The position numbers were made by a program, and so were the translations under genes. Shown piece after piece: positions 291 to 43,972 of a DNA stretch of 44,009 bases. Every line of letters starts with the position of its first letter. The first letter of the stretch is position 1. Source of the stretch: a virus; the IMG/VR virus record IMGVR_UViG_3300020213_000003, positions 1 through 44,009 of that record, one strand, 5' to 3'. The notes beneath the pieces were generated by a model, which worked only from the letters and a program-made list of their open reading frames with translations, searched no databases and had not been told where the DNA came from.

Positions 291-764
291 TTAGACTGAG
301 CTGGCAGGGGGTTGGCTAATGGCCTGGAATGGGGTGCTTGGCTGGCTTGGTGCGACTGGTTCGCCTATACGAGACGGATGAACCCGGCCACTATCCCGCC
401 GAGCATCAATGCCAGCTATAATTCCCCTAACGCTCTCTATGGCGTCCCTCATCTGCCGTTTCCTCTGCCCCTTCTTAATTACTGCCTGCCATTTCTCCGG
501 CTTCCCATGCTTGGCCATGAACCCATCCAGCCACGTCTCTACCATCCCTTCCCGTCTAAACCATTCGCCCCGCACTGAGTAGTCGCTAAACGCCAAGTGT
601 AGCTCACGCTCTGCCGCTCCGCCCTTGTCACGTCTATAGGCCAGTACCTTAAGCTCCAGCGGGCATCCTACCTGCATTGTGCTTAGCCTCACGCCTGGAT
701 CGCCCTCAGTGATGCCTATCTTCACGTACAGGCCATCAGCGGTGCCAATCGCGTATAATCCCAT
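291..764 (-). CDS. T5orf172/MUG113-type GIY-YIG nuclease-like protein
   Basis: About 157 residues. The N-terminal 75 residues carry the pattern of the T5orf172/MUG113 branch of the GIY-YIG superfamily: GLYAIG at the start, then VKIGIT, RL..MQ.G.P, an invariant-looking E.ELH..F and a closing GEWF. The basic helical middle and Pro/Ser-rich tail have no recognised domain. The family is found widely in phages and is thought to nick DNA, but the role here is unknown. I prefer the ATG at 764 because a well-formed -10 (772-777) would place the transcript start near 765. The in-frame ATG at 770 lies only one base beyond that -10. The gene stands alone as the first leftward gene. Confidence 0.8.
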   Translation of the reverse strand: MGLYAIGTADGLYVKIGITEGDPGVRLSTMQVGCPLELKVLAYRRDKGGAAERELHLAFSDYSVRGEWFRREGMVETWLDGFMAKHGKPEKWQAVIKKGQRKRQMRDAIESVRGIIAGIDARRDSGRVHPSRIGEPVAPSQPSTPFQAISQPPASSV

Positions 765-799
765 ATACATATGTATACGACCGCTCTCTTAATTGCCAA
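763..799 (-). promoter_or_regulatory. Leftward promoter with palindromic operator-like site
   Basis: On the minus strand TTGGCA (799-794), a 16-bp spacer and TATACA (777-772) form a good sigma70-like promoter. The -10 is one half of the perfect 14-bp palindrome TATACATATGTATA at 764-777, a member of the genome-wide TWAYACA-NN-TGTRTWA family. The start codon at 764 falls about where transcription should begin, predicting a leaderless mRNA. Confidence 0.6.
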
Positions 800-834
800 G
801 CGTCGCCATCCCTACACACCCCAGAAAGATTCCC

Positions 835-862
835 TTGCGCCCCATTGCACAGTCGTTAGATT
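835..862 (+). promoter_or_regulatory. Early rightward promoter, copy 1
   Basis: TTGCGC, a 16-bp spacer and TAGATT. The whole 831-900 block (promoter, leader, ribosome-binding site CAAGGAACAG and start codon context) is a diverged copy of 1393-1459. The spacer contains ATTGCACAGTCGT, which is also found in the promoter at 13416-13444. Confidence 0.55.
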
Positions 863-894
863 CCGTCCATCGTCACCCACCAAGGAACAGTCCA

Positions 895-1065
895 GTGAAC
901 AAGCCCTTCATCGTCCAGCATCTCCCATGGGTCAAAGGCAAGAAGGAGCTTGAGCGAGTTTTGCGCGACACTCTCAAGCCGATGAATGGCCGCTATACTA
1001 CTGAAGCCGGCTCGACTGTGTGGATCGTCTCTAACTCCAAGATCGTTGGGAAGGTCCAGCCATGA
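895..1065 (+). CDS. Small early protein, unknown function
   Basis: 56 residues from a GTG start, lysine-rich in the centre (WVKGKKELERVLRDTL). I chose GTG 895 because it follows AAGGAACAG at the same spacing as the duplicated leader before the gene at 1454, while the upstream in-frame ATG at 793 lies before the promoter. The stop overlaps the next start in ATGA. It is the first gene of the rightward arm. No family recognised. Confidence 0.6.
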   Translation: MNKPFIVQHLPWVKGKKELERVLRDTLKPMNGRYTTEAGSTVWIVSNSKIVGKVQP

Positions 1066-1391
1066 CCACCCCATCCCACACTCCCGGCCCTTGGTTTTGC
1101 GCAGACTGGCTAATCGGTGACGCCAAGCGACCACAGTTGACCATTGCAAGCTCCACGGATCAGGTCGCCATCGTCCCATCCCTGTACGTCAATCGGGCTA
1201 AGGAATGGGCAGCCAACGCTCGCCTCATCGTCGCAGCTCCTGACATGCTCGCCGCTCTACTCGCCGCCCAAGCAACAGTCGAGACCCACACAGTGCGCGC
1301 CTACAAGTATGGCTGCGTCGATCGGGACGCTGAGGCGACCCTGGCAGAGATCAGCGCCGCCATTGCCAGGGCCACGGGCACCCCCGTCTAA
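1062..1391 (+). CDS. Conserved phage protein of the HTPGPW...ANARLIAAAPD type
   Basis: 109 residues. It begins with HTPGPW and carries the segment ANARLIVAAPDMLAALLAAQ, a signature shared by many small phage and prophage proteins of unknown function. The C-terminus is an alanine-rich helix. Translationally coupled to the preceding gene by a 4-base overlap. No enzymatic motif. Confidence 0.75.
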   Translation: MTTPSHTPGPWFCADWLIGDAKRPQLTIASSTDQVAIVPSLYVNRAKEWAANARLIVAAPDMLAALLAAQATVETHTVRAYKYGCVDRDAEATLAEISAAIARATGTPV

Positions 1392-1396
1392 TTCCC

Positions 1397-1424
1397 TTGC
1401 GCCATCACACCACTGTGTTAGACT
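1397..1424 (+). promoter_or_regulatory. Early rightward promoter, copy 2
   Basis: TTGCGC, a 16-bp spacer and TAGACT, the same architecture as 835-862. The spacer sequence CACCACTGTGTTAG resembles one arm of the operator-like palindrome family. The leader again ends in CCACCAAGGAACAGTCCA before the start codon. Confidence 0.55.
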
Positions 1425-1453
1425 CGCCCCATAACCCACCAAGGAACAGTCCA

Positions 1454-1732
1454 ATGAACGACACACTCCAAACAACCCTTCGCCTCTGGACCTACGATGT
1501 CCTAGGCAATGAGATGGACGGCTACGATGTAAACGACCGCTGCAATTCGCAGACGGAAGTCATCGATGGCGACATTCCGGCCCTTCACCGTGATGCCGAG
1601 GATCTGCTGGCTGAAGTCTTCCAGTTCGGGCCCCAGGTGCGTATCGACTGGACGCAAGGCGACGAATGGACCTATGAGCTTGTTAACAGCCAGACCGGGA
1701 TGCCTCTTGGCCAAATCACAGTCGGCGAGTAA
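1454..1732 (+). CDS. Acidic small early protein, unknown
   Basis: 92 residues, strongly acidic (many D and E), with no signal or membrane segment. The ATG at 1454 follows AAGGAACAG at seven bases. The in-frame ATG at 1397 lies within the promoter and is not used in this model. Acidic early proteins of this size often act as host-protein mimics, but nothing specific is recognised. Confidence 0.7.
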   Translation: MNDTLQTTLRLWTYDVLGNEMDGYDVNDRCNSQTEVIDGDIPALHRDAEDLLAEVFQFGPQVRIDWTQGDEWTYELVNSQTGMPLGQITVGE

Positions 1733-1736
1733 CCCA

Positions 1737-1853
1737 ATGCGCCTCCCCTTCACCTCATCAGCCAGCATCGCCCGCCACCTCACCCACCTTCGCCTTGCCG
1801 AACGCGCAACCCGCGCTATGGCGATCACTGACCGCTACACTAAGAAAGCCTAA
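1737..1853 (+). CDS. 38-residue basic peptide
   Basis: A 38-codon frame fits exactly between neighbours: 4 bases after the stop at 1732 and 3 bases before the ATG at 1857. The product is basic and probably helical (arginines spread through the second half, ending YTKKA). Junction spacing like that of the neighbours (AACCCA-ATG) supports it as a real gene. No family recognised. Confidence 0.5.
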   Translation: MRLPFTSSASIARHLTHLRLAERATRAMAITDRYTKKA

Positions 1854-1856
1854 CCC

Positions 1857-2129
1857 ATGCAAGCCATCCTCACAAAATACCACGGTCCCAGCAACACGCG
1901 CGGCTCCTACATGAGCGCAAAGTGTGAGGCACTTTCAATCCGTGTCAGCTATGATGACGCCATAAACTCGGACGAGAACCATATCGCCGCATGCAATGAA
2001 CTGTGCCGTCGCATGGATGAGCAAAGCGCCAAGAAGTACGGCAGCAGCGTGCCGGGAACGTGGTCCAAGCCCAAGGCCAGCGGGCAGCTCCATACTGGCG
2101 AATACGCCCACGTCTTCACGGAAGGCTAA
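1857..2129 (+). CDS. Conserved small phage protein (KAILTKY-like start)
   Basis: 90 residues. The opening MQAILTKYHGPSNTRGS matches a pattern seen at the start of many small phage proteins (an aI.TKy.gptNtRgsr.kA motif) of unknown function. The rest is hydrophilic. It lies in the run of tightly spaced early genes and shares the TAACCCATG junction with its neighbours. Confidence 0.7.
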   Translation: MQAILTKYHGPSNTRGSYMSAKCEALSIRVSYDDAINSDENHIAACNELCRRMDEQSAKKYGSSVPGTWSKPKASGQLHTGEYAHVFTEG

Positions 2130-2132
2130 CCC

Positions 2133-2327
2133 ATGCGTATCCTCAAGAACCGGACCGCCTACGTCATCCAAGGTAACTACGTCTCCCACGGATCCTCCCA
2201 CGGATGGGAGGATGAGAATGAGGAGGCCACCCTCACCGAGGGCAAGCGGAGCCTCCGGGAATACCGCGCCAATGGTCCAGGCCAGTACAGGATGATAATC
2301 CGTAGGATTCCGATCGTCCTACGCTAA
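2133..2327 (+). CDS. Small early protein, unknown
   Basis: 64 residues, begins MRILKNRTAYVI and is basic at the C-terminus (RMIIRRIPIVLR). It starts 3 bases after the preceding stop. No domain recognised. A strong hairpin follows at 2344-2370. Confidence 0.6.
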   Translation: MRILKNRTAYVIQGNYVSHGSSHGWEDENEEATLTEGKRSLREYRANGPGQYRMIIRRIPIVLR

Positions 2328-2343
2328 CCAACCCAAACCCCTG

Positions 2344-2370
2344 CCCCCTCGGACCATCGCGGTCCGGGGG
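2344..2370 (+). terminator. Strong hairpin, terminator-like
   Basis: CGGACC, loop ATCGC and GGTCCG are extended by C-run and G-run arms, giving a stem of about 10 bp directly after the gene ending at 2327. Only TTAAGG follows, so termination may be partial. A related hairpin occurs at 4581-4606, and each precedes an AGGAACCCCAG leader. Confidence 0.5.
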
Positions 2371-2408
2371 TTAAGGCAGTAGATCACAACCCTAAAGGAA
2401 CCCCAGCC

Positions 2409-2615
2409 ATGAGCACCCAGATCATCCCCACGACATCCAGCCACCCCTACTTCGTCCTCCTGATCGGCGGCCCGTGCGATGGTCTCCGGTACCAGTACGA
2501 GTCCCGCTACCAGGCCAGGAAGGCTGGCAAGGAGGCGGTGGATAGCGGAGACTGCGACGCGTTCAGCGTCCACACGGTGCCGCAGAAGGACCGCACCACC
2601 GAAGCGGAGGGCTGA
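2409..2615 (+). CDS. Small early protein, unknown (parent copy of 3057 remnant)
   Basis: 68 residues, with LLIGGPCDGLRYQYESRYQARKAGKE reminiscent of small phage 'GGPxDG' proteins. The leader CCTAAAGGAACCCCAGCC supplies the ribosome-binding site. The first 41 bases recur with one mismatch at 3057. It ends in AEG because the next gene's ribosome-binding site (GCGGAGGGCTGAGCC) is embedded in its final codons. Confidence 0.65.
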   Translation: MSTQIIPTTSSHPYFVLLIGGPCDGLRYQYESRYQARKAGKEAVDSGDCDAFSVHTVPQKDRTTEAEG

Positions 2616-2618
2616 GCC

Positions 2619-2828
2619 GTGAGTAGCAAGATCGACGCGCTAGAGGCCACCATGACATTCGCCATGGCCCACACCCAGAGGGCACATGCCCTAGAGGATG
2701 CCCTGGACGCGGCCCTCGGTGCCCACCCACCGGGCTCGCCTGGGGCGGTGGCTGCCCGCGCGACGTATGATGCGGCCTATGCCGTTTTGGACGCTGACCT
2801 GGCGCGGTTCCTTGAAGCGGAGGGCTGA
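2619..2828 (+). CDS. Small alanine-rich helical protein, unknown
   Basis: 69 residues from a GTG start with GGAGG embedded in the previous gene. Alanine-rich and predicted nearly all helical (AHALEDALDAALGAH...ATYDAAYAVLDADLARFL). It ends in EAEG through the same junction module as the gene before it. Confidence 0.6.
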   Translation: MSSKIDALEATMTFAMAHTQRAHALEDALDAALGAHPPGSPGAVAARATYDAAYAVLDADLARFLEAEG

Positions 2829-2831
2829 GCC

Positions 2832-3053
2832 ATGAGCACCTACCACAACATTACATCCATCGCGCCGATCGAGTGGGAGCAGACCTCTGACCGAGTCTAT
2901 GAAACGCAAGCCGGGGATGGGTCGCTCTGGAAGCACTGCGTCGGCGGAAAGACCGTCGAGGTGACAGACATTCACGCCACGGACTCGGCCGCCGCAGAAT
3001 CGATGCACGCTAGCGCCCTCGCGATGCTTGCCACCCTCGGCGCGGAGGGCTGA
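2832..3053 (+). CDS. Small early protein, unknown
   Basis: 73 residues, mixed composition, no recognised family. The start lies 3 bases after the previous stop, with GCGGAGGG upstream. It ends GAEG, again through the shared junction. The next start codon is the truncated duplicate at 3057. Confidence 0.6.
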   Translation: MSTYHNITSIAPIEWEQTSDRVYETQAGDGSLWKHCVGGKTVEVTDIHATDSAAAESMHASALAMLATLGAEG

Positions 3054-3056
3054 GCC

Positions 3057-3110
3057 ATGAGCACCCAGATCATCCCCACGACATCGAGCCACCCCTATCT
3101 GGGTCGCTAA
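3057..3110 (+). pseudogene. Truncated duplicate of the 2409 gene
   Basis: Bases 3057-3097 repeat 2409-2449 with one mismatch. The copy reads MSTQIIPTTSSHPYLGR and stops after 17 codons, so only the 5' end of the gene remains. It looks like a remnant of duplication or recombination at the repeated junctions, although it could still be translated as a short peptide. Confidence 0.7.
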
Positions 3111-3183
3111 CGGTCGGCACCAACTCAAGGCCTTGTCATCCAGGCTGCGCGAATCTAGCGCTAAGTGAACCCCATCCCGCCCC

Positions 3184-3204
3184 GGTCCCCTGCGTAACGG
3201 GACC
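3184..3204 (+). terminator. Hairpin before the 3242 gene
   Basis: GGTCCC, 9-base loop, GGGACC. No T-tract follows. It lies in the 131-base gap after the truncated copy and just before the AAAGGAACCCCAGCCC leader, the same arrangement as at 2344-2400. Confidence 0.35.
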
Positions 3205-3241
3205 CCAAACGCCTTCATCACCCCTAAAGGAACCCCAGCCC

Positions 3242-3487
3242 ATGCACTACCTCGCCCAGACCGCCAAAGCCGCCAACGATGACAACCTGGCACGTCGCGT
3301 CCGTATCGACGAAGTCATGGAGGGATGGACCCTGCCATGCACGGTCTATGACATCCTGGCCAGCGATGATATCGACATCGCTACAGATGAGACTCACCCC
3401 GTACTGGGCGCCCTGGGCTCCATGCCCTTGGATGAGGCGCAGCAGCTTGTAATGGGTCGCTTAGACGCGATGTCCTTCCTGGCCTAA
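3242..3487 (+). CDS. Small acidic early protein, unknown
   Basis: 81 residues, acidic in the middle (SDDIDIATDE). The ribosome-binding site is in CTAAAGGAACCCCAGCCC. No recognised domain or membrane segment. Confidence 0.6.
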   Translation: MHYLAQTAKAANDDNLARRVRIDEVMEGWTLPCTVYDILASDDIDIATDETHPVLGALGSMPLDEAQQLVMGRLDAMSFLA

Positions 3488-3517
3488 CCGAACCCCACCC
3501 AATAGGAACCCCAGCCC

Positions 3518-3748
3518 ATGAACACCGCATCCCCCTGTCGTATCATGTGCATTAATTGCAGGAGACATGCAGCTATCACGGTTGCTAGATATGTGCAATC
3601 TCAATGCGGCATGCTCCGCGCCAGCTCTAGGTCTTACTGCAAAACCCACGCGCCGCACCCCGATCATGTGCTTGTTAACGGCACAACCGACCGCGTGGAG
3701 GTTGTTGGTGACGTGAGCGCAACGCCATGGGCCTATCACCATCCATAG
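3518..3748 (+). CDS. Cysteine-rich small protein, possible zinc binding
   Basis: 76 residues with cysteines and histidines (CRIMCINCRRH early, then C, then CKTHAPH) that could form a zinc site. The leader is AATAGGAACCCCAGCCC. The 3' half and following intergenic stretch are less GC-rich than the surroundings. No family recognised. Confidence 0.55.
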   Translation: MNTASPCRIMCINCRRHAAITVARYVQSQCGMLRASSRSYCKTHAPHPDHVLVNGTTDRVEVVGDVSATPWAYHHP

Positions 3749-3789
3749 AGTCGGCTCGTGGCCACTATTAACTAATGAGGGAATAAATA

Positions 3790-4212: not shown

Positions 4213-4374
4213 ACCCCAGCCCCCACCCTCTTGCGACCCATTCTCAACAGCGGGGGGAAGGGTGGGCGGAACTGGGTTGGGGGGTGACTTCAAAAGACAC
4301 ACAGTGATGAGACAAGCATAAGACAATTCCCACCCCCTAAGCGAACCACAGCCCATACCTACTAAGGAAATCAG
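4213..4374. other. Intergenic region with G/C-rich inverted repeat
   Basis: A 162-base gap. GCCCCCACCCT (4219-4229) can pair imperfectly with AGGGTGGGC (4259-4267). The 13-mer CCCATTCTCAACA occurs at 4184-4196 (inside the preceding gene) and 4237-4249. An AAGGAAATCAG ribosome-binding site precedes the next ATG. No gene seen. Confidence 0.45.
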
Positions 4375-4572: not shown

Positions 4573-4580
4573 ACCCCTAC

Positions 4581-4609
4581 CCCTCGGACCCTAACCAGTC
4601 CGAGGGTTT
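4581..4609 (+). terminator. Rho-independent-like terminator
   Basis: CCCTCGGAC pairs perfectly with GTCCGAGGG (9 bp, 8-base loop) and is followed by TTTCC. It lies 9 bases after the stop at 4572, so it is well placed to end the first early operon. Confidence 0.6.
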
Positions 4610-4716: not shown

Positions 4717-4790
4717 GTTCAGCCATTGAACTTGAAGTCTATATACCTCTTAGAGTATATATATTACTTACAGTTCAGCCATTGAACTTG
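4717..4790. repeat. Repeated hairpins in an AT-rich island
   Basis: The 18-mer GTTCAGCCATTGAACTTG occurs at 4717-4734 and 4773-4790. Each contains GTTC and GAAC arms, so each can fold. Between them TATATAC and GTATATA form another inverted repeat in an AT-rich stretch. The second copy covers the last codons and stop of the leftward winged-helix gene. This could be a terminator cluster for that gene, or iterons of a replication origin. Confidence 0.6.
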
Positions 4791-5116
4791 GGGTCGTCAT
4801 CTTGGACCAGCCAGTAGTGGTTCTTATCCCGCCCGTTCTTCCCGTTGGTCTGTCCATAGCCGATCCAGCTCTGAGCAACCAGGACCTTGATGCAGGCAGC
4901 CAGGGTAGCGCGAGCAACGCCCGACTCAGCCATTAGCAGATCGTACCCAGGGAAACAGTACCCATTCTCGTCCATGTGGCCGAGCAAGGCGTACATGACC
5001 GACCGCTGGTTCCCCGTGAGCTGACGATCCAGCCGAACCCGCTTGGCGGTGTACTCCACAAGCCTCATGCGCTCGACCCAGGCACGCTGGAAGGGGGTCA
5101 AATCAGAACGGTCCAT
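4775..5116 (-). CDS. Winged-helix DNA-binding protein (HTH_36-like)
   Basis: 113 residues. The core from about residue 33 to 90 (LTGNQRSVMYALLGHMDENGYCFPG, then LLMAESGVARATLAACIKVL) matches the winged-helix pattern of HTH_36 proteins, used by replication initiators and transcription factors. I chose ATG 5116, preceded by CTAAGGATCGCC, over the upstream 5158 start. It is the only well-supported leftward gene inside the rightward early arm. It is preceded by a 150-base leader with inverted repeats and a promoter carrying an operator-like palindrome. It may be a repressor of the early operon or an origin-binding protein. Confidence 0.75.
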   Translation of the reverse strand: MDRSDLTPFQRAWVERMRLVEYTAKRVRLDRQLTGNQRSVMYALLGHMDENGYCFPGYDLLMAESGVARATLAACIKVLVAQSWIGYGQTNGKNGRDKNHYWLVQDDDPKFNG

Positions 5117-5139
5117 GGCGATCCTTAGAGAAACGATAA

Positions 5140-5273: not shown

Positions 5274-5300
5274 TTATACAATTGTATTTGACCTTCGCAA
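5274..5300 (-). promoter_or_regulatory. Leftward promoter of the winged-helix gene with operator
   Basis: On the minus strand TTGCGA (5300-5295), a 16-bp spacer and TATAAG (5279-5274). The palindrome TTATACAATTGTATTT (5274-5289) fits the genome-wide TWAYACA-NN-TGTRTWA motif. The transcript would have a leader of about 150 bases containing the inverted repeat at 5140-5202. Confidence 0.55.
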
Positions 5301-5307
5301 GAGGCGC

Positions 5308-5322
5308 TATACGGTGGTGTAA
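5308..5322 (+). promoter_or_regulatory. Operator-like variant before the 5339 operon
   Basis: TATACGGTGGTGTAA resembles the operator at 43948-43963 with one shifted base. TATACG may be a -10, but the upstream -35 (TTGACC at 5288) is only 14 bases away. It faces the leftward promoter at 5274-5300, so the two would be divergently arranged. Confidence 0.4.
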
Positions 5323-7254: not shown

Positions 7255-7304
7255 GACACACACCGGTGTAAGATTTGCATTGCCATTCATACACACCCGT
7301 GTTA
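7255..7304 (+). promoter_or_regulatory. Two operator-like sites before the 7340 gene
   Basis: ACACCGGTGT is a perfect 10-bp palindrome inside 7255-7272, and TACACACCCGTGTTA (7290-7304) matches the family motif. TTGCAT lies at 7275-7280, but no strong -10 is placed 16-18 bases after it. The next gene has a normal leader with AATAGGAGTTAATCC. Confidence 0.45.
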
Positions 7305-9010: not shown

Positions 9011-9291
9011 TGGACATTAACCTCCCCGACTTCCACCGCGAAGACCATCAGCTCCACTTCATCGGTGGCGCAGTCATCACGGCCGGTTCCACGGTCATCG
9101 TTGACCTGATCAATCCCGACGCCCCCCGTATTGTGCGAATCCTTGTGCCACTCATGGCCGACGCGCTTATCTCAGGAGCCAAGGAAGTCTACGACTACCA
9201 ACATCCCGGCCGGCACACCTGCGAAACAGGCGACTTCCTTGCTGGCATGGTAGGGGGGTTCTCAGTCACCATTTTTACATGGACAGGGTGA
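9010..9291 (+). CDS. Membrane protein with YfiM/DUF2279-like pattern
   Basis: 93 residues. Two or three hydrophobic segments (FIGGAVITAGSTVIVDLI; ILVPLMADALISGAKEVYD; FLAGMVGGFSVTIF). The order HF...G, AKE.YD and D.....G resembles the YfiM/DUF2279 family, but this is pattern resemblance only. TAATG overlap with the upstream gene suggests coupling. A role in the inner membrane is inferred. Confidence 0.6.
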   Translation: MDINLPDFHREDHQLHFIGGAVITAGSTVIVDLINPDAPRIVRILVPLMADALISGAKEVYDYQHPGRHTCETGDFLAGMVGGFSVTIFTWTG

Positions 9292-9298
9292 TGCACAT

Positions 9299-9604
9299 AT
9301 GTATGACATCGCCATGACCATGCGCTTTAGCCCACACCTTGAATACGATGACGAGCAAGGCGCCTTTCACACAGACATGCTGAGAGACGATGGTGGGTGC
9401 TGGATCAGCGCAGCCGACTTCGACGCGCTGAAGGCCGAGCGGGACCGGCTGGCGGCGGCGCTGCGGGATGCGGCGACCAGCTTGCATACAATCGCCATTG
9501 CGGCGGGCAGGGTTAATGGCGCCATGGCCGAGATGGGCGACGTGCGTGGGTACGCCCATAGCCGATGGACGGTGGCCTATGCAGCCCAAACGCACGTTGC
9601 TTAA
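9299..9604 (+). CDS. Phage protein with DALKAERDRLAAAL helix
   Basis: 101 residues. The central ISAADFDALKAERDRLAAALRDA is a coiled-coil-like segment common in small phage proteins. The start at 9299 overlaps an operator-like palindrome core (TGCACATATGTATGA, 9292-9306), and no strong ribosome-binding site precedes it. Function unknown. Confidence 0.65.
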   Translation: MYDIAMTMRFSPHLEYDDEQGAFHTDMLRDDGGCWISAADFDALKAERDRLAAALRDAATSLHTIAIAAGRVNGAMAEMGDVRGYAHSRWTVAYAAQTHVA

Positions 9605-9880: not shown

Positions 9881-9924
9881 TTGACAGGGCTGCATTCCGC
9901 TTGCTATCTAACACAGGTGTATAA
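9881..9924 (+). promoter_or_regulatory. Promoter with operator before the 9955 gene
   Basis: TTGACA (9881-9886) and TATCTA (9905-9910) are separated by 18 bases. The palindrome TAACACAGGTGTATAA (9909-9924) overlaps the -10 and start region, and its TATAAG could itself be a -10. The leader has an AGGA ribosome-binding site, so this transcript is not leaderless. Confidence 0.6.
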
Positions 9925-12985: not shown

Positions 12986-13502
12986 CGCATGTACCCAGTC
13001 ACGGCTCGCCAGCTTAGAGGCGCGCGTTGCCGGGCTGGAGGACAAGCTCCGAGAGTCCGTTAAGCAGCCGAGCGTTGACCAAACCGACCCGTTCCCAGCG
13101 CCCGCTCCCGATCCAACCGATATCCTGCGGGGCTATGGGCTGATCGTCGGCAAGGAGGATCGCCCCGTGATCCGTGAGCTGGCCCGGCGCTTCACCAAGG
13201 ATGACATGCTCGCCACCCTGGACCGTCTCAAGAAGGAGCGGCTGAAGGTGTGGGTCGGTGATCTGGCCGTGGCCCTGAATAGCCGGGAGTCCAAGCCGGA
13301 AACGCCGACGTTAGGGACGGCGATCGATGAGGCTGCGAGCCTGAAGAGACTGACCAAGATCAACGATGCAGGCACTATCCCAAGGGAGCACCAGCGAGGC
13401 GCTGCCGGTTTAGCCTTGCAAGATGCATTGCACAGTCGTATAACAATCGCCATGCTCGTACAGCGGTTCCCCTGGATGGTTACTTACACGGTGCGCGGAT
13501 GA
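12975..13502 (+). CDS. Hypothetical protein with N-terminal coiled coil
   Basis: 175 residues from ATG 12975. Residues 7-30 (SRLASLEARVAGLEDKLRES) form a short coiled coil, followed by a proline-rich linker (FPAPAPDPTD) and a helical domain (IRELARRFTKDDMLATLDRLKKERL). A linker-plus-helical domain near replication genes suggests a helicase loader or initiator accessory, but no family is recognised. A promoter-like sequence for the next gene lies near its 3' end. Confidence 0.65.
   Translation: MSTDACTQSRLASLEARVAGLEDKLRESVKQPSVDQTDPFPAPAPDPTDILRGYGLIVGKEDRPVIRELARRFTKDDMLATLDRLKKERLKVWVGDLAVALNSRESKPETPTLGTAIDEAASLKRLTKINDAGTIPREHQRGAAGLALQDALHSRITIAMLVQRFPWMVTYTVRG
13416..13444 (+). promoter_or_regulatory. 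Intragenic promoter upstream of the XRE regulator
   Basis: TTGCAA, an exact 17-bp spacer and TATAAC, inside the 3' end of the 12975 gene and 55 bases before the XRE start. The spacer contains GCACAGTC, which shares 13 bases (ATTGCACAGTCGT) with the promoter at 835-862. An in-frame ATG (13452) lies seven bases after the -10. Confidence 0.5.
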
Positions 13503-13753
13503 TCGCATGCGATACCACGCTGTTCCCACGCCGGCTCAGGGCCACGCGCCTTAGCCACCGGTTCAGCCAAGCTGACTTGGCCGCGCGGGTTGACCTCGTC
13601 AAAGGGTCCATCAGCGACTTCGAGACGGGCCGACTGCAACCGTGCTTAGACACCTTTCTCAAGCTCTCATGGAGCCTCCGCGTATGTCCACACTGGCTAC
13701 GCGGGTATCCGAACAACAACGCTAAGAAGGAATCACATGAAGAAGTCCATTAA
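13499..13753 (+). CDS. XRE/Cro-like helix-turn-helix regulator
   Basis: 84 residues. RLRATRLSHRFSQADLAARVDLVKGSISDFETGRLQPCLDTFLKLSWSL follows the Cro/CI-type HTH layout, with the SQADLAARVDLVKGSISDFE helix pair at about residues 23-42. It is short, with no peptidase or dimerisation domain, so it resembles a Cro-like factor. It is a leading candidate for the protein that recognises the repeated palindrome. ATGA overlap upstream, 17-base overlap downstream. Confidence 0.8.
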   Translation: MIACDTTLFPRRLRATRLSHRFSQADLAARVDLVKGSISDFETGRLQPCLDTFLKLSWSLRVCPHWLRGYPNNNAKKESHEEVH

Positions 13754-14474: not shown

Positions 14475-14657
14475 ATGAACGCGGACACCTGGACGTGCGT
14501 GGCGAGAATCATTGGACGCCATAATCGCCCACGTTCCAGCCGGTCTATCGCCAACGCCTTGGGGAGAAATCCCCGAGGTATTTGGCATACCCTGCGGTCA
14601 CTGAAGGATCAGGGTAAGATCCGGCAGCTTGATGATGGTAGCTGGGTGCGCGCATGA
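14475..14657 (+). CDS. Small winged-helix-type protein
   Basis: 60 residues. SSRSIANALGRNPRGIWHTLRSLKDQGKIRQLDDGSWVR reads as a helix-turn-helix plus wing, the size of a minimal wHTH DNA-binding domain. It starts immediately after ssb. A third candidate regulator, but with no family assignment. Confidence 0.65.
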   Translation: MNADTWTCVARIIGRHNRPRSSRSIANALGRNPRGIWHTLRSLKDQGKIRQLDDGSWVRA

Positions 14658-15104: not shown

Positions 15105-15120
15105 TTATACAGAGGTGTTA
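15105..15120 (+). promoter_or_regulatory. Operator/promoter before the methyltransferase-like gene
   Basis: TTATACAGAGGTGTTA fits the palindrome family. TATACA (15106-15111) would place transcription start about 15118, only a few bases before ATG 15122. The -35 is poor. The same TACAGAGGTGTTA core precedes the fibre gene at 38945 on the other strand. Confidence 0.5.
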
Positions 15121-15121: not shown

Positions 15122-15742
15122 ATGCGCGTTCTTATTGCATGTGAATACTCGGGCCGCGTGCGTGAAGCGTTCCGCCGACTGGGCCACGAGGCATGGTCAT
15201 GCGATCTGCTGCCATCTGAGGACGGGAGTCAGTTCCATATCCAAGGGGACTGCTGGGATGTCATCGCTAACGAGGGATGGGATCTCATCGTGGCTCATCC
15301 GCCATGCACTGACCTGTCCGTCAGCGGCGCCAGGTGGTGGCCCGCAAAGCGCGCCGATGGTAGCCAGCATGCCAGCGTCCAGTTCTTCCTGCGATTCACG
15401 CAGCTAACGTGTCCTTGGGCCATTGAGAACCCGATTGGCCTGATGTCCACCCTGTACCGCAAGCCGGATCAGATCATCCAGCCGTGGCAGTTCGGGCACA
15501 GCGAGAGCAAGGCAACGTGCCTATGGCTCAATGGCCTGCCCTCCCTGACGCCGACATGCATCGTGCCCGGTCGCAAGGTGGATGGCCGAGAGCGTTGGGA
15601 TAACCAGACGGACAGTGGGCAGAACCGCCTTTCACCTAGCCCGGATCGTTGGAAGGAACGGAGCCGGACCTATCAGGGCATCGCTGACGCCATGGCCGCG
15701 CAGTGGTCATTTGCGTTGACCTCATCTAACACAGATGTATAA
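15122..15742 (+). CDS. Cytosine-C5 methyltransferase-like protein
   Basis: 206 residues. CEYSGRVREAFRRLGHEAWSCD resembles the SAM-binding motif I of C5 methyltransferases, HPPCTDLSVSGARWW the PPC catalytic loop, and AIENPIG the ENV-type motif. It is short and lacks an obvious target-recognition domain and later motifs, as in several phage proteins of this type. It may modify bases, or be a degenerate SAM-binding protein. It has its own operator-type promoter with little or no 5' leader. Confidence 0.65.
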   Translation: MRVLIACEYSGRVREAFRRLGHEAWSCDLLPSEDGSQFHIQGDCWDVIANEGWDLIVAHPPCTDLSVSGARWWPAKRADGSQHASVQFFLRFTQLTCPWAIENPIGLMSTLYRKPDQIIQPWQFGHSESKATCLWLNGLPSLTPTCIVPGRKVDGRERWDNQTDSGQNRLSPSPDRWKERSRTYQGIADAMAAQWSFALTSSNTDV

Positions 15743-16964: not shown

Positions 16965-18052
16965 TGCTGAACACCGTCACTTTTATCCGCGAGCACGGTC
17001 TGGCGAAGATCACCGAGGATCTTGCAGTCATCGTCAAGCGCCATCCCCAGTACGGCAATCTGGTATTTTTCAAGTACAACCAGATTGAATCTCCCATGAA
17101 CCACGCCGTCGTGCAGGAATGCCGAGGACTGATTCTGGATGAGGCGAATGACTGGGCCGTCGTCAGCTACCCGTTTGGAAAGTTTTTCAACTACGGAGAC
17201 GGCAACGCCAAGGACATCGACTGGTCCACGGCCACCGTCTTTGAAAAGTTGGATGGCTCACTGATCACCATGTATTATTACGACGGAAAGTGGCAGGTTG
17301 CCAGCAACGGCACCCCTGACGCAGGCGGACCCGTGCAGGGACAGAGCATGACGTTCTGTGACCTGTGGCGACAGACGGCAGGCGACATCTGTGGCAAGCT
17401 CGACCCGGCGTATTGCTATATGTTTGAGTTAATGACGCCGCTGAATCGCGTGATTGTTCCACATGAGAAGCCCAAGTTTGCCATGCTCGGCATGCGTAAT
17501 CTCCTCACCCTGGAGGAAGAGCCACACGCGGAGTACGCGCTGCTCGCTGGAATGCCTATTGCACACTCGTATAATTTGACGACGTGGGACGAGATCACCG
17601 AGGCGGCTAAGGCCCTTAACCCCATGCAGGCGGAAGGCTACGTGGTATGCGATGCTGCCTTCAACCGCGTCAAGGTTAAGTGCCCGCAGTACGTCGCCCT
17701 GTCCCACATGAAGGACGGGTTCAGCCGGCGCAGGATGATCGAGTTGGTACGCCATAACGAGGGAGATGAGTTCCTATCCTACTTCCCCGAGTATCGCGGG
17801 CTCTTTAATGAAATCTTGGACGCATACCGAAACGTCGTGGCTGAGATTGAATCGACCTATGAGCGCATCAAGGGGCTGACGAGTCAGAAGGAGTTTGCGC
17901 TGGAAGCGACTAAGACATCCATGTCTGGCGCGCTCTTCGCCCTGAGAAATGGACGGACCACAAATGTTAAGTCGTACATTCAGGGGGTTAGCCTTGAGGC
18001 CCTGGAACGCATGTTCTCATCGACTGGCACGCACCCGATCGGACAAATATGA
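16964..18052 (+). CDS. RNA ligase (T4 Rnl1-like)
   Basis: 362 residues. The nucleotidyltransferase motif EKLDGS, with the lysine at residue 95, follows an upstream QECRGLIL block. Further conserved blocks include MFELMTPLNRVIV and VKVKCPQYV. This is the pattern of the RNA_ligase (T4 Rnl1-type) family, which seals RNA ends with ATP. Adjacent to a phosphoesterase, it may repair tRNA or other RNA cut by host defences. Confidence 0.85.
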   Translation: MLNTVTFIREHGLAKITEDLAVIVKRHPQYGNLVFFKYNQIESPMNHAVVQECRGLILDEANDWAVVSYPFGKFFNYGDGNAKDIDWSTATVFEKLDGSLITMYYYDGKWQVASNGTPDAGGPVQGQSMTFCDLWRQTAGDICGKLDPAYCYMFELMTPLNRVIVPHEKPKFAMLGMRNLLTLEEEPHAEYALLAGMPIAHSYNLTTWDEITEAAKALNPMQAEGYVVCDAAFNRVKVKCPQYVALSHMKDGFSRRRMIELVRHNEGDEFLSYFPEYRGLFNEILDAYRNVVAEIESTYERIKGLTSQKEFALEATKTSMSGALFALRNGRTTNVKSYIQGVSLEALERMFSSTGTHPIGQI

Positions 18053-32164: not shown

Positions 32165-33208
32165 TTAGTGTGCTTGACGTTCGTTGTGTGATTTAATAAA
32201 CTGGATGAGTGCCATTCCCTTGAGTCCCTTGGCCGTACCGATCGAGAGCGCATCGGTTGCCACTGGCTGTGAAACCTGATCACGGCTGACCCGTGAACGT
32301 TTCTGAAGGGCTGCCTGCTGCGCCTGGGCCGTCGCCTGGACCTCTGTCGCCTTACCGATGTTTGCCCGCAGTCCTTTATTCTCGGCCTCTAGCTGGATCA
32401 GCTTAAGGGCGCCATCACGCCCGAATTGGGGCATGAGTTCCAGGAAGCGTTCGCGGTTGGCCTCCATCAGTTTCCCATTTTCAGAGAGGTACTGCTGGGC
32501 CTGCGCTCGTGCGTTCTGGTATTGCTCGAACTGGGCGAATCGCGCATCCAGGGCGCTGTCCAACATTGACGCCATATTCTGCTCGATGTACCCCTTGGGG
32601 TCACGGGCAATATCTTGGCGAACCTGTTGGTCGTTCTGCACCCACTGATTGTGAAGTTGAATATCGTCGTTTGAGATCCCGATCGACTGCGCGATACGGG
32701 TCTTAACGTCGTCATGCGATTCCTGCGGAAGCCCCTGCGTCGCGCCTTGCACGGCTGCGCTGTAGTGCTTCACCCGCTCCAATCGGCTCATGGCCGTCTG
32801 GTGGTCGGGATGCTTTGGATGCCACTGCTGGAGCTTCTGCACATCAGCTTCACGCTGGCGCTGCTCTAGAGTTGCGCGGATTTCCTCGGGCGAGGGGAGG
32901 CCTTGATAGGCTTCCACGCGCTTGCGAGCTTCGCCCAGTTCTTGGGCTTGCCGGCCATACAGAGAGCGGAGGTTGAGGAGTTGTTTAATTTCCTCGGGCT
33001 TCAACTGCGGAAGCGCCTCGCCTGTAGCTGGCAGAGAATTAGTCTGCGGTTTATCGGTTGGCAAAGATCCGGGGTTGGCATCCGCACTGAGAGTGTCAGC
33101 CGAAGCTGATTCCTGTGCTGGCGCTGCCGTTTCAGCCGGTTCGCTGATGACTGCCGGGGCAGAGTCAACGGTATCCGATGAAGCGGGCGAGTCGGTACTA
33201 TCGGGCAT
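32165..33208 (-). CDS. Scaffolding protein
   Basis: 347 residues. N-terminal 60 residues are disordered (Ser/Ala/Pro/Thr/Asp-rich), followed by long charged helices with coiled-coil character (LNLRSLYGRQAQELGEARKRVEAY; LEAENKGLRANIGKATEVQ) and a basic C-terminus with GLKGMALIQFIKSHNERQ. This is typical of procapsid scaffolds. It has an operator-type promoter and AAGGAAACACAGGAATACA leader. Translated immediately upstream of the capsid gene. Confidence 0.8.
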   Translation of the reverse strand: MPDSTDSPASSDTVDSAPAVISEPAETAAPAQESASADTLSADANPGSLPTDKPQTNSLPATGEALPQLKPEEIKQLLNLRSLYGRQAQELGEARKRVEAYQGLPSPEEIRATLEQRQREADVQKLQQWHPKHPDHQTAMSRLERVKHYSAAVQGATQGLPQESHDDVKTRIAQSIGISNDDIQLHNQWVQNDQQVRQDIARDPKGYIEQNMASMLDSALDARFAQFEQYQNARAQAQQYLSENGKLMEANRERFLELMPQFGRDGALKLIQLEAENKGLRANIGKATEVQATAQAQQAALQKRSRVSRDQVSQPVATDALSIGTAKGLKGMALIQFIKSHNERQAH

Positions 33209-33240
33209 TGTATTCCTGTGTTTCCTTAAAGCTAGCGTCT

Positions 33241-33263
33241 GTATACATATGTGTGATTATGGG
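33241..33263 (-). promoter_or_regulatory. Operator-type promoter of the scaffold/capsid operon
   Basis: The palindrome GTATACATATGTGTGA (33241-33256) differs from the site at 33829-33844 at a single base. Read leftward TATACA (33246-33241) lies 17 bases after a TTAGTC-like -35. The transcript has a proper leader with AAGGA before ATG 33208. Confidence 0.5.
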
Positions 33264-33827: not shown

Positions 33828-33844
33828 GTTATACATATGTGTGA
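33828..33844 (-). promoter_or_regulatory. Operator-type promoter downstream of the portal gene
   Basis: The palindrome TTATACATATGTGTGA (33829-33844) lies against the portal stop, and its TATAAC is the -10 for the 33815 gene. A TTGCAT 13-15 bases further upstream is a loose -35. Predicted leader is about 5 bases. Confidence 0.5.
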
Positions 33845-37694: not shown

Positions 37695-38945
37695 TTAGAC
37701 GACGCAGAGGACGCGATAGGTGGTGCCGGCCGCGTCTTTGATGGTCAAGGTGTGGGTAGCGGTTGGGGTCGCGGCTACGGCGGTATTGCCAAGCGTGAGC
37801 GCCTGCGCGCTGGCCACGGTGATGCCGCCCGATGCGGTCACTGCGCCGGTTACGGCCAGCGTGCTCGCCAGCGTGACCGCTCCGGATGACGTTATTGTCA
37901 GCGGGGTTGTATCGAGAGTTCCGGCATTGCTCGTGCGCAGACGGAACTCGCCGCCGATGCCAGTAACGTCGATGTATGAAATCGACGCCGGCCGGTGCAG
38001 TTGAATGTTAGCCGGCAAAATATCGGTGATGAGCGTGCCATCGGTCACGCGCACCGTTCCCGTGAAATTGCCCAGCACCGACCGCACATCCGACCATTGC
38101 AGCGCCGCAGTGCCGAGGGTGCGCGCGTTGTCGGTGGTGGGGGCGAGTTGGCCGGCAACGGAGACGGCGCCAGCGATGGCAACGGTGCCGGCAGAGTTGA
38201 TCCGCAGCCGCTCCACCATCGCGTCCGCGTTATTGCGAGACAGGATATAAAAGTCTGAAGTCTGCGTACCAACGCTTCCATTGGTCCACGAGGCGGTGCC
38301 CGCGCAACCCAAGGCAAATGTCGGCTTGACGACCCCGGTGGATGTCGCTTGCCAACCAACGAACCCCGAATCGTAGCCGCCAGACTGCGTATTGACCGAC
38401 CCGGCCCATCCACTCAGCGCGGTTGACGCCGATGTCGGGTCAGTGCCTCCGCTGAATGCTGCGCCGGACCAGAAGGCTAAGTTTGCATTCCGAGCCGCGA
38501 CCGAACTTGCCGACGCGTGTCCATTCACTTGCAACCGCGTCGTGCCGTCGTCGGTCGGGGCGCCGAGGAGGGTTCTGCCGGCTCGCAGCCTTACCGTCTC
38601 AGTGTAGACAGAGGCGTCCGATGATGCCTGGATGATATCTAGACTTCCGGCTGTTCCGACGGCCGGGCCGAATGTGATAAGCCGAGAAGTGTTGAGATCG
38701 AGTTGATCAAGTGTTACTTTCGATGCGCCGGTAGAAACAAGAGATCCAACAGATTCCATGCTCCGCGTCGTCCGAATAAGGCCGCTCGCCGTCAGCGCCC
38801 CCACGCCCGTGACGTTATTGCTTATGTCAACAAGGACGCCCGAGTTCTGCGTATTACCCGTAGTCCCGCTAAACTTTACGACAGCGTTGTCGGTGCTGAC
38901 CGTGGCGAGGCCGATAAGTGACTTAGTCAGGCCAGGTTCTAACAC
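37695..38945 (-). CDS. Fibre-like beta protein between terminase and lysis genes
   Basis: 416 residues from GTG. Threonine/serine/alanine-rich beta repeats (GTLDTTPLTITSSGAVTLASTLAVTGAVTASGGITVASAQALTL type), with N-terminal fibre-like repeats (STDNAVVKFSGTTGNTQNSGVLVDISNNVTGV). Resembles tail fibre or head fibre shafts. No chaperone-type tail seen. It has its own operator-type promoter, with the start six bases after the -10, so expression is separate from the terminase. Confidence 0.65.
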   Translation of the reverse strand: MLEPGLTKSLIGLATVSTDNAVVKFSGTTGNTQNSGVLVDISNNVTGVGALTASGLIRTTRSMESVGSLVSTGASKVTLDQLDLNTSRLITFGPAVGTAGSLDIIQASSDASVYTETVRLRAGRTLLGAPTDDGTTRLQVNGHASASSVAARNANLAFWSGAAFSGGTDPTSASTALSGWAGSVNTQSGGYDSGFVGWQATSTGVVKPTFALGCAGTASWTNGSVGTQTSDFYILSRNNADAMVERLRINSAGTVAIAGAVSVAGQLAPTTDNARTLGTAALQWSDVRSVLGNFTGTVRVTDGTLITDILPANIQLHRPASISYIDVTGIGGEFRLRTSNAGTLDTTPLTITSSGAVTLASTLAVTGAVTASGGITVASAQALTLGNTAVAATPTATHTLTIKDAAGTTYRVLCVV

Positions 38946-38973
38946 CTCTGTATGTTAGTGTGCAGTTGATAAC
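38940..38973 (-). promoter_or_regulatory. Operator-type promoter of the fibre-like gene
   Basis: Read leftward, a TTGCAT-type -35, 16 bases and TAACAT (38957-38952). The site TAACACCTCTGTATGTTA (38940-38957) has one extra base compared with the consensus. GTG 38945 lies six bases past the -10, so leaderless initiation is predicted. Confidence 0.5.
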
Positions 38974-40605: not shown

Positions 40606-41129
40606 TACTCTTCCAGGTCCGCGTCAGTCAGGTCATCCTCGGTATTGCCCTTCCGATCCTCATGCATCTTCCACTTCTGCGCCAGGTCAGCCAGCTTCGT
40701 GCTCATCGTGGTCAGCGTCGCCAAGTGCGTGCCCTCATCCTTGCGCATCGCCGCCAGTTGCAGATTGATCGCCTCTAGCTCCTTGGTGCGCAATGTTTCG
40801 TATTTCGCCAAGGTCGTGAAGGCAGCGCATCGATCCTCGGGATCAAGGTCGGCCTGCTCGATCGATTCCCGCGCCAGGGTACAATCGTGTTCCATCGCCA
40901 CGTACCGACGCTCACGCTCCAGGAGCATTTGGACATCTGGCGTATCCGACCATCCACGGGACGAACGCTTGCAGACGCGGCCCTCGGGATCATGAATATC
41001 GGAGAAGAGCTGGAGGTTATTCATGCGAGCCGCGATACGACGGCGGACACGGGCCTGGCGCCCAATGTCGCGGATCATGCGGCCGATGACGGCTTCGTTC
41101 TTGTCGGGGGCAGCGGGGAGACTGGTCAC
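40605..41129 (-). CDS. Probable terminase small subunit
   Basis: 174 residues from GTG. Arginine-rich N-terminal helix (GRQARVRRRIAARMNN) and a long C-terminal helical region (LRTKELEAINLQLAAMRKDEG, LADLAQKWKMHEDRK) ending acidic. Size, helix content and the TAATG coupling to the large subunit make it the best TerS candidate, although no HTH motif is certain. The start lies seven bases after a -10, so it may be leaderless. Confidence 0.55.
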   Translation of the reverse strand: MTSLPAAPDKNEAVIGRMIRDIGRQARVRRRIAARMNNLQLFSDIHDPEGRVCKRSSRGWSDTPDVQMLLERERRYVAMEHDCTLARESIEQADLDPEDRCAAFTTLAKYETLRTKELEAINLQLAAMRKDEGTHLATLTTMSTKLADLAQKWKMHEDRKGNTEDDLTDADLEE

Positions 41130-41136: not shown

Positions 41137-41163
41137 AGTTAACACATGTGTGTGAAATGGCAA
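41137..41163 (-). promoter_or_regulatory. Operator-type promoter of the terminase operon
   Basis: Read leftward TTGCCA, 16 bases and TAACTT (41142-41137). TAACACATGTGTGTGA (41140-41155) contains a perfect ACACATGTGT core. GTG 41129 lies seven bases after the -10, with no Shine-Dalgarno sequence. Confidence 0.55.
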
Positions 41164-41542: not shown

Positions 41543-41754
41543 CCGAAGATGGTCCTTTTAAGAAACTCAAAGTCATCCCGACTCGCCGGCTCGTCTGCCA
41601 CAGCCTCGGCGCCCTCACGCTTGACCAGCTCCTTCTGGATCTGGCCATGAAGGTGGGCTAACTCGCGCTTGGCATCAAGGAGGGCGTTGTCGGAAAGAAC
41701 GTCAAGCCTTGCCTCGGCAGAGACGGCAGCAATACGGGTTGCTAGGTCGGTCAT
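41539..41754 (-). CDS. Small coiled-coil protein, unknown
   Basis: 71 residues, helical (LLDAKRELAHLHGQIQKELVKREGAEAV), ending FLKRTIFG. ATGA overlaps on both sides. No family recognised. Confidence 0.55.
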   Translation of the reverse strand: MTDLATRIAAVSAEARLDVLSDNALLDAKRELAHLHGQIQKELVKREGAEAVADEPASRDDFEFLKRTIFG

Positions 41755-42071
41755 GCCAGGAGTGCCTTTGCCTTGGTCAGGGCTAAGCGCAGGACTTCCA
41801 GACGTAGGGGGGCTAGGTTGGCGTCGTCAATGGCGCGGATAGCGGTGATCAGGTCAGCGAGGTCGGAACAATGGATGCCCGCCTCATTCATGAGTGCGTC
41901 GCCGGATCCAGTGTGGCGGGCCACGAAATTGTCAGTGCGGTACGGTTCAGCCCACCCAGATACCTTAATGGGATCATTAAGCAGCAGCGTGCTCCTGGGC
42001 GGATTAAAGGTGCCTGCCCCGTCAATCAGCTCTGAGGAAATAGAATCTTTGGGGAGCTTGCGGGGAGGCAT
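41751..42071 (-). CDS. Hypothetical protein with leaderless start
   Basis: 106 residues (MPPRKLPKDSISSELIDG, TLLLNDPIKVSGWAEPY). Starts six bases after a perfect TATAAC -10 without any Shine-Dalgarno sequence. First gene of a three-gene unit. No family recognised. Confidence 0.6.
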   Translation of the reverse strand: MPPRKLPKDSISSELIDGAGTFNPPRSTLLLNDPIKVSGWAEPYRTDNFVARHTGSGDALMNEAGIHCSDLADLITAIRAIDDANLAPLRLEVLRLALTKAKALLA

Positions 42072-42077: not shown

Positions 42078-42111
42078 GTTATACGGGTGTGTGATGGGAG
42101 GTCAAGGGCTT
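42078..42111 (-). promoter_or_regulatory. Operator-type promoter, clearest leaderless example
   Basis: Read leftward TTGACC, a 16-bp spacer and TATAAC (42083-42078), then six bases to ATG 42071. TTATACGGGTGTGTGA (42079-42094) fits the palindrome and matches the site at 43948 at 15 of 16 bases. No ribosome-binding site. Confidence 0.65.
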
Positions 42112-42807: not shown

Positions 42808-42936
42808 TTAGGCCTCCTGGAGAGCGAGCATGGTGACCAGCATCGCCAACGCCCACCATGGGCTCCCAGTGATGATCAGCACCACGGCACAGATGGCGAG
42901 TACGCTTGAGAGGATTGCGGTGGCGATAGGCTTCAC
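42808..42936 (-). CDS. 42-residue membrane protein
   Basis: Starts in a GTGA overlap and ends exactly one base before the next GTG (TAAGTG). Two short hydrophobic runs (SSVLAICAVVLIITG; WWALAMLVTMLAL). Chained with other tiny membrane proteins in this operon. Holin or membrane modulator is possible. Confidence 0.5.
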   Translation of the reverse strand: MKPIATAILSSVLAICAVVLIITGSPWWALAMLVTMLALQEA

Positions 42937-43163
42937 TTGGACACCAAAGTGTGAATAATCTCGACGACCACTGGTTTTGAGAATGTCGCCTCCAGGATCG
43001 AGCGGACGGCTACATCATATGCGGCGCGCGCCTCGTCGATAGTGTCGAAGCGATAGTTGTAATAGCCGGTCCCGTGAGTAGTCCACCCGTACCATGCACG
43101 GAACTGGATGGTGTAATGCTTTTTGCCCAGGCCGTTCTTACGCTCAAGGATACGGGCATTCAC
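42933..43163 (-). CDS. Small hypothetical protein
   Basis: 76 residues from GTG. YTIQFRAWYGWTTHGTGYYNYRFDTIDEARAAYDVAVRSI resembles small AP2-like or WGR-like folds only loosely. Ends in LVSK through the same GTGTCCAAGTGA junction found before it. No family recognised. Confidence 0.55.
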   Translation of the reverse strand: MNARILERKNGLGKKHYTIQFRAWYGWTTHGTGYYNYRFDTIDEARAAYDVAVRSILEATFSKPVVVEIIHTLVSK

Positions 43164-43252
43164 TTGGACACCACGTAGATCGCCAGGCTGATGGCGGTGG
43201 CGTGGGTCAGGATGGTGGCGGTGAGGAATAGGCGGTGGTGGAGGGGGGTCAT
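43160..43252 (-). CDS. 30-residue membrane peptide
   Basis: Starts in an ATGA overlap and ends in a GTGA overlap. MTPLHH then about 20 hydrophobic residues (LFLTATILTHATAISLAIYV), ending VSK. One membrane span. The third tiny membrane protein in this cluster. Confidence 0.45.
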   Translation of the reverse strand: MTPLHHRLFLTATILTHATAISLAIYVVSK

Positions 43253-43443
43253 TTGATCTTCCAGCGGAATTGGATGGTGCGGTTGTCGTCTAGGTAGAAC
43301 TCGCCTGCGTTGGCTTTGACGGCTTCGCGGCGGACTAGGTCACTGCCGCTATTAGATCCGGCACAGAACATGCCGAGGGCAATGACCGAACCCATAAGGG
43401 CGAGCCCAATGCCAATCATGCACTCCGAGAGGCGGTCTTGCAT
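43249..43443 (-). CDS. Small membrane protein with hydrophobic N-terminus
   Basis: 64 residues. Hydrophobic segment (MIGIGLALMGSVIALGMFCAG) then a charged C-terminal part (RREAVKANAGEFYLDDNRTIQ). Single-pass or secreted. Part of the first leftward operon after the contig junction. Confidence 0.55.
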   Translation of the reverse strand: MQDRLSECMIGIGLALMGSVIALGMFCAGSNSGSDLVRREAVKANAGEFYLDDNRTIQFRWKIK

Positions 43444-43446
43444 GTC

Positions 43447-43659
43447 TTACTCCGGTAGGCCGAGGATTGCTCGGTTGTACTTTGAGGTGACGTGGACGTG
43501 CTCAATGTCGGCGCCGACGACGACGAGCTTGGATGCTCCGTCTGAGTAGTGCCAGGTCTGGATGGTCGGGTTAGGGCCGGGACGGAGGGCGCTGCGGGCA
43601 ATCGTGGTCCAGGTGTCGCTGGGACGGGACTTGGTGATGCGGGTGAGGGTGGGCTTCAC
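43447..43659 (-). CDS. Small hypothetical protein
   Basis: 70 residues from GTG in a GTGA overlap. Beta-rich (TIQTWHYSDGASKLVVVGADIEHVHV). No family recognised. Confidence 0.55.
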   Translation of the reverse strand: MKPTLTRITKSRPSDTWTTIARSALRPGPNPTIQTWHYSDGASKLVVVGADIEHVHVTSKYNRAILGLPE

Positions 43660-43937
43660 GGGGACTCCCTGAATGTAATGGACTGGATAGAGCTGAATGG
43701 GATCACCCAGAGATCGTTATCAATGGACATGATCGCCAGGGTGCCGGGCTTGGCGTAGCCCTGGATGGTAAGGCGGGTCGCGGTTAGCTGACGGCCTTCA
43801 GTGGAGGTGATGGTGCCGATGATGTGGCCAGCACCTTGGAAGGGGGGCTTCAGGTGGATGAAGACGCGGGCTCCCTCGCTTGGGCCTGGGGAGTCTGGTC
43901 CGGGTGGGATAAAGCCTGGTCCTGGGAGAACGGTCAT
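43656..43937 (-). CDS. Small beta-rich protein, first gene of the leftward operon
   Basis: 93 residues. A proline-rich N-terminus (GPGFIPPGPDSPGPSEG) followed by a beta-rich segment (HLKPPFQGAGHIIGTITSTEGRQLTATRL). ATG lies nine bases after a TATAAG -10, with no Shine-Dalgarno sequence. Function unknown. Confidence 0.55.
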   Translation of the reverse strand: MTVLPGPGFIPPGPDSPGPSEGARVFIHLKPPFQGAGHIIGTITSTEGRQLTATRLTIQGYAKPGTLAIMSIDNDLWVIPFSSIQSITFRESP

Positions 43938-43946
43938 GGGCTTGGT

Positions 43947-43972
43947 CTTATACGGGTGTGTTAGGTTGTAAA
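43947..43972 (-). promoter_or_regulatory. Operator-type promoter at the contig junction
   Basis: TTATACGGGTGTGTTA (43948-43963) matches the palindrome exactly. TATAAG (43952-43947) is preceded at 14 bases by TTTACA, shorter than the usual 16-18. Drives the small-gene operon from 43937. Confidence 0.55.

Follow-up and report, generated by a model that had tools for sequence, protein, structure and literature searches.

A dispersed family of palindromic, predicted operator sites at gene starts in a 44-kb virus record

Dispersed operators that answer to one regulator have been described in several phages. In Streptomyces phage phiC31, the c repressor acts on about 18 conserved inverted repeats that overlap promoters throughout the genome. 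Phage repressors of the XRE/Cro class also bind operators over promoters; however, they act on one or few operators at a single switch. In phage P1, 22 operators of the C1 repressor are dispersed over the genome, and they are 17 bp long, asymmetric and read ATTGCTCTAATAAATTT (PMC8546580). Mycobacteriophage L5, a member of cluster A, has more than 20 repressor sites (operators and stoperators) spread across its genome, where they occupy promoters and short spaces between genes; these sites are asymmetric, span 13 bp and are predicted to be bound by a monomer (PMC9283540). Here we describe a family of 18 palindromic sites in IMGVR_UViG_3300020213_000003, an IMG/VR virus record taken in full (44,009 bases; the window hereafter) that is classed as linear and is thus possibly incomplete. 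We consider it fairly likely that the sites serve as operators for a single dimeric DNA-binding protein, which would act as a repressor over the core promoters of nearly all transcription units.

The logic of such an arrangement, with many dispersed sites and one regulator, would match that of P1, phiC31 and L5, and we claim homology to none of them. A single motif was found at many dispersed places, mostly promoters or gene starts. Like P1, the phage has many dispersed sites, but they are 16 bp long and have a dyad, and a relative of C1 was not recognised in the phage. As in L5, the sites lie at probable promoters and in intergenic spaces; they differ from L5 sites in their dyad, and only one is clearly intragenic. 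An asymmetric consensus like those of the C1 and L5 sites was not found, as AC and GT are complementary in 18/18 sites. The phiC31 system, by its general description, would be similar in having palindromic, promoter-overlapping sites genome-wide; no relative of its repressor was seen in the phage.

Detection and placement of the site family

A preliminary description of the window had proposed a palindromic pattern shared by 16 sites. With two mismatches or fewer, this pattern is matched 14 times, against 0.23 matches expected, and in 100 shuffles that number was never attained. Starting from 12 sites, iteration of a reverse-complement-symmetric matrix set apart 18 sites with scores of 13.8-23.2 and a 16-letter consensus, TNAYACANNTGTRTNA. 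Below them the scores drop: two intragenic positions reach 11.0 (37323) and 9.6 (37964), and the rest do not exceed 6.5. In 100 Markov-1 genomes, scores above 13 occurred 0.33 times on average (maximum 2) versus 18 in the phage, and scores above 16 occurred 0.05 times (maximum 1) versus 17. As the matrix had been trained on the sites, leave-one-out scoring was added, with the matrix built from the other 17; 17 of the 18 sites scored at least 15.7, and the site at 5307 scored 11.6. The family is therefore real. All 16 sites of the preliminary description belong to it, with some coordinates off by 1-2, and two sites, 1405-1420 and 17559-17574, had been missed.

Placement was examined on a gene map based on codon usage and start choice, with a few genes added by hand, in which about 92% of the window is coding. 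Thirteen of the 18 sites are mostly non-coding, where 8.3% of positions would be expected (P = 5e-11), so that the sites are not equally dense in coding DNA. At 16/18 sites, a start codon is overlapped or lies no more than 70 bp downstream. Measured on the oriented strand, the gap to the next start codon is -8 to +55 bp for 15 sites, 68 bp for 7256, 157 bp for 5274 and 474 bp for 17559; orientation is ambiguous for 763, 5274 and 17559. Sites 13428, 15727 and 42079 lie within the end of the preceding gene, yet just ahead of the next start. Small early-type genes are among the units preceded by sites, as are a methyltransferase-like gene (15122), the gene that opens the capsid operon (33208), the one before the terminase gene (41129) and, at the right end, genes that run leftward. 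This map bears out the preliminary view of a single motif that precedes transcription units of either strand, whether early-type or structural. The matrix scan found no strong site in 17.6-33.2 kb, a region made of the downstream parts of two long converging operons. These are a rightward helicase operon and a leftward structural operon, which converge at 20382/20383 with zero gap between their stop codons.

In the left arm, the site at 763..778 (ATATACATATGTATAC, minus strand, score 19.05) overlaps the start of the GIY-YIG-like gene 291-770 (gap -8), and that at 1405..1420 (TCACACCACTGTGTTA, plus strand, 18.1) lies 33 bp ahead of gene 1454. A divergent region, bounded by a gene for an HTH_36 protein and gene 5339, holds the sites at 5274..5289 (TTATACAATTGTATTT, minus strand, 20.5) and 5307..5322 (CTATACGGTGGTGTAA, plus strand, 13.8), the former 157 bp from the HTH_36 gene and the latter 16 bp ahead of gene 5339. 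All remaining oriented sites of this arm are on the plus strand. Gene 7340 is preceded by a doublet, 7256..7271 (ACACACACCGGTGTAA, 16.0) and 7289..7304 (ATACACACCCGTGTTA, 17.2), whose second member is 35 bp ahead of the gene. The site at 9291..9306 (ATGCACATATGTATGA, 17.3) is at the start of gene 9299, for which 9314 is an alternative, leaderless start, and the one at 9909..9924 (TAACACAGGTGTATAA), an exact match to the pattern, is 30 bp ahead of gene 9955. At 13428..13443 (TTGCACAGTCGTATAA, 17.7), in the end of gene 12975-13502 and 55 bp ahead of a gene for an XRE protein, the preliminary description saw a half site; the site is full. The methyltransferase-like gene is preceded at a distance of 1 bp by 15105..15120 (TTATACAGAGGTGTTA, 20.6), and 6 bp ahead of gene 15749 lies 15727..15742 (TAACACAGATGTATAA), an exact match whose score, 23.2, is the best in the genome. 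The site at 17559..17574 (TTGCACACTCGTATAA, no strand assigned, 16.9) is inside an RNA ligase gene with no start near, and may be a roadblock site or a chance occurrence. The ligase gene (16964-18052) is of the T4 Rnl1 type and adjoins a phosphoesterase gene.

The six sites of the right part are all on the minus strand. Going rightward, 33241..33256 (GTATACATATGTGTGA, 19.4) is 32 bp ahead of gene 33208, the first gene before the capsid gene; 33829..33844 (TTATACATATGTGTGA, 23.0) is 13 bp ahead of gene 33815; and 38940..38955 (TAACACCTCTGTATGT, 16.8) overlaps the GTG start of gene 37695-38945. The site at 41140..41155 (TAACACATGTGTGTGA, 20.6) lies 10 bp ahead of gene 40605-41129, upstream of the terminase gene, 42079..42094 (TTATACGGGTGTGTGA, 18.9) lies 7 bp ahead of gene 41751-42071, and 43948..43963 (TTATACGGGTGTGTTA, 19.7) lies 10 bp ahead of gene 43656-43937. 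Elsewhere in the window, 6509-6829 has a weak match to the restriction alleviation protein Lar.

Site anatomy, pairing and promoter-like features

AC at positions 5-6 and GT at positions 11-12 (AC-N4-GT) are invariant in 18/18 sites, as is T14, and position 3 is A or G. Both half-sites share the consensus GTRTNA, and the flanks are variable. This combination of a dyad with variable flanks, anticipated in the preliminary description, is what would be expected of the operator of a dimer. The outer pairs of the dyad are not kept complementary: the pair 4/13 is complementary in only 6/18 sites, which suggests that the half-sites are probably contacted separately by a protein dimer instead of forming a hairpin. 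A hairpin promoter was rejected on the same ground. Nor do the sites resemble the N4-type hairpin promoters of a virion RNA polymerase, as complementary stem changes were not found and the longest open reading frame (ORF), of 921 amino acids (aa), has no polymerase match.

Only two close pairs exist, 5274/5307 and 7256/7289, and both have a spacing of exactly 33 bp. Among weak partners of single sites, the best one (33208..33223, minus strand) likewise lies exactly 33 bp from its neighbour, 33241, and sits at the start of gene 32165-33208. Its score is 4.5-5.8, with a rank of about 22-27 among 44,000 positions, and we estimate the probability of such a coincidence at about 0.02. When a 33-bp partner was sought at the single sites in general, none was found except at 33241. 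Doublets at exactly 33 bp suggest cooperative binding; at slightly more than three helical turns, two dimers would readily fit on the same face of the helix.

Many sites probably form part of a promoter, as judged from their sequence. When the sites are read towards the gene, an exact GTATAA forms the downstream half in 8/18 and the upstream half in 1/18 (Fisher P = 0.018). At five sites the half near the gene is GTGTTA; in the far half, GTGTGA and GTGTTA predominate. A -35-like hexamer, with at least 4/6 bases of TTGACA, is present 15-18 bp upstream in 7/18 sites (13% expected, P = 0.006). As regards sigma-70 features, TATAA occurs at 8/18 sites, T at position 6 of the -10 element is almost never found, and a full TATAAT is rare. 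The proposal that the TATAA half serves as a -10 hexamer in most sites thus holds only in part; others have GTGTTA or GTGTAA, or a -10 elsewhere. Positions 1-20000 contain fewer sigma-70 consensus pairs than do shuffles (2 versus a mean of 9.4), as if stray promoters were avoided.

Nine sites are so near the start codon that a transcript begun 6-8 nt past the -10-like half would open at the start or a few bases before it; starts 42071, 15749, 9314 and 43937 are examples of genes predicted to be nearly leaderless. A Shine-Dalgarno core is present at 1/9 starts with close sites versus 5/6 starts further off (Fisher P = 0.011), as expected if transcription begins at the site. This evidence is no more than supportive: the test is small, some starts (764, 9314) were picked by us among alternatives, and where a site is close, it takes up part of the place of a Shine-Dalgarno core.

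Relatives and conservation

Searches with the portal, capsid and terminase proteins yielded one close record, IMGVR_UViG_3300020219_000091 (19 kb), which is about 97.5% identical to the window, with a range of about 96-99.5% among aligned blocks. It keeps unchanged all five matching strong late sites (33241, 33829, 38940, 41140 and 42079), plus the weak partner at 33208. The sites were thus not lost in a close relative, one too similar for a strong test: 0/80 bases are changed in the five sites versus 13/600 flank bases, a difference that is not significant, and at that rate of flank change unchanged sites would be expected anyway. Gene 37695-38945 and its counterpart in this record share only about 55% identity, although the record is otherwise 97-99% identical, which suggests that the gene is fast-changing or swapped.

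Searches for other relatives with the portal, capsid, terminase, HTH_36 and XRE proteins returned three distant terminases only, and the site family is absent there. The portal, terminase and capsid proteins had no match in phage records, the portal and HTH_36 proteins had none in plasmid records, and two scans of bacterial and archaeal genomes gave no relative. Among 91 virus records chosen for at least one exact site and scanned whole, most of them AT-rich, none had a comparable excess over a reversed-pattern control for its length. Viral contigs contain at least 599 stretches related to the methyltransferase-like gene (15122-15742, PHROG 757), with identities of up to 65%; in the phage, this gene has sites on both sides. 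The idea that the motif is baggage of a methyltransferase module was rejected: 80 methyltransferase loci (1.03 Mb) from phages that share only this gene contain the motif at the chance rate, with 20 matches scoring above 11, versus 18 above 13 in the 44 kb of the phage. As far as the collections show, the site family is specific to this phage lineage.

Candidate regulators and alternative explanations

If the sites are operators, the dimer is most likely encoded by the phage. Once bound, it would cover the -10 region and the start point and keep RNA polymerase off, so that early and structural genes would be shut together, as by a prophage-type master repressor; ahead of units with sites paired at 33 bp (about three helical turns), two dimers may bind cooperatively. 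Two proteins are the leading candidates, and sites stand ahead of both of these helix-turn-helix genes. One is an HTH_36 winged-helix protein (4775..5116, minus strand; ORF to 5158 with a TTG start) that matches Pfam HTH_36 (E 7e-8) and PHROG families for replication initiation and DNA binding. Its gene runs leftward inside the rightward arm and adjoins a doublet; a leftward gene beside an operator doublet is a usual place for a prophage repressor, and its position would be CI-like. The other is an XRE/Cro-type protein of 84 aa (13499..13753, plus strand), with HTH_31/HTH_3 matches near the cut-off, which might be Cro/RstR-like. It matches the RstR and DicA subfamilies below NCBI cut-offs and resembles in sequence the P22 C2, HipB and ICEBs1 Xre chains. 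Unlike the repressors of these weakly matched families, with their few operators, it would face 18 sites. The two proteins may compete for the same sites. A weaker candidate is a 60-aa winged-helix-like protein (14475..14657, start approximate, plus strand), with weak HTH and LexA-DNA-binding-like matches only.

Several observations weigh against a master repressor. About ten sites lack TATAA in the gene-side half, and one lies inside the RNA ligase gene. AlphaFold models of the HTH_36 and XRE candidates are of low confidence (pLDDT 55 and 45), too poor for a fold search. Among the proteins scanned in this possibly incomplete record, nothing was recognised as an integrase, a partition gene product or a known lysogeny repressor. 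Lastly, no divergent relative was found, so that selection on the sites can barely be assessed from the one close record.

The asymmetry in gene direction, the nearness of start codons that lack a Shine-Dalgarno and the scarcity of classic sigma-70 pairs would also suit a motif whose main role is that of a phage-specific promoter element, recognised by a modified form of the host polymerase or by a phage factor that escaped recognition here. Such an element would consist of an upstream TNACAC and a downstream GTATAA with a start codon close after, and its dyad would be incidental. We regard this as unlikely, as the two halves share one consensus in which AC/GT never varies, the downstream half is GTGTTA at five sites, the site at 15105 is reversed, a promoter does not need 33-bp doublets, and the scanned proteins yielded neither an RNA polymerase nor a sigma factor. 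Moreover, one site can serve both as promoter and as operator.

Phages that exploit host repressors are known, and a host regulator of, for example, the CopY/BlaI or LexA type might bind the sites, so that the phage would sense the state of its host. The core ACANNTGT matches the ACA-NN-TGT geometry of the CopR-CopY operator TACANNTGTA (PMC7253601), and since it also fits CopY-type winged helices, the motif leaves the fold type undecided. CopY/BlaI is not, however, a genome-wide system of a phage, and no match to its Pfam family (Penicillinase_R) was found among the candidate regulators, in a scan that did not take in every ORF. The phage has helix-turn-helix genes of its own that are preceded by sites, and we rate a host regulator as less probable still than a promoter element. 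Least credible of all is that the sites are iteron-like targets for replication or partition, bound by the HTH_36 protein in the role suggested by its PHROG replication-initiation matches: most of them stand alone, and instead of clustering they are scattered across 43 kb and go with gene starts.

Returning to the repressor explanation, a bolder version of it seems to us a long shot. It holds that a lineage-private switch is at work, in which the HTH_36 protein, related to replication initiators, and the XRE protein would compete, as CI and Cro do, for the same 16-bp operators at all promoters, whether early or late; transcripts from the operator would be leaderless, and the phage would be kept without an integrase.

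If the 18 sites are indeed operators of one regulator, they would add an independent, palindromic case to the short list of phages whose whole genome is governed through one operator (P1, L5 and phiC31), and this case would come from a phage to which the public phage collection searched contains nothing closely related. The site set would also place about 15 promoters on the map of this phage, together with predictions of where transcription starts and of which genes are leaderless.

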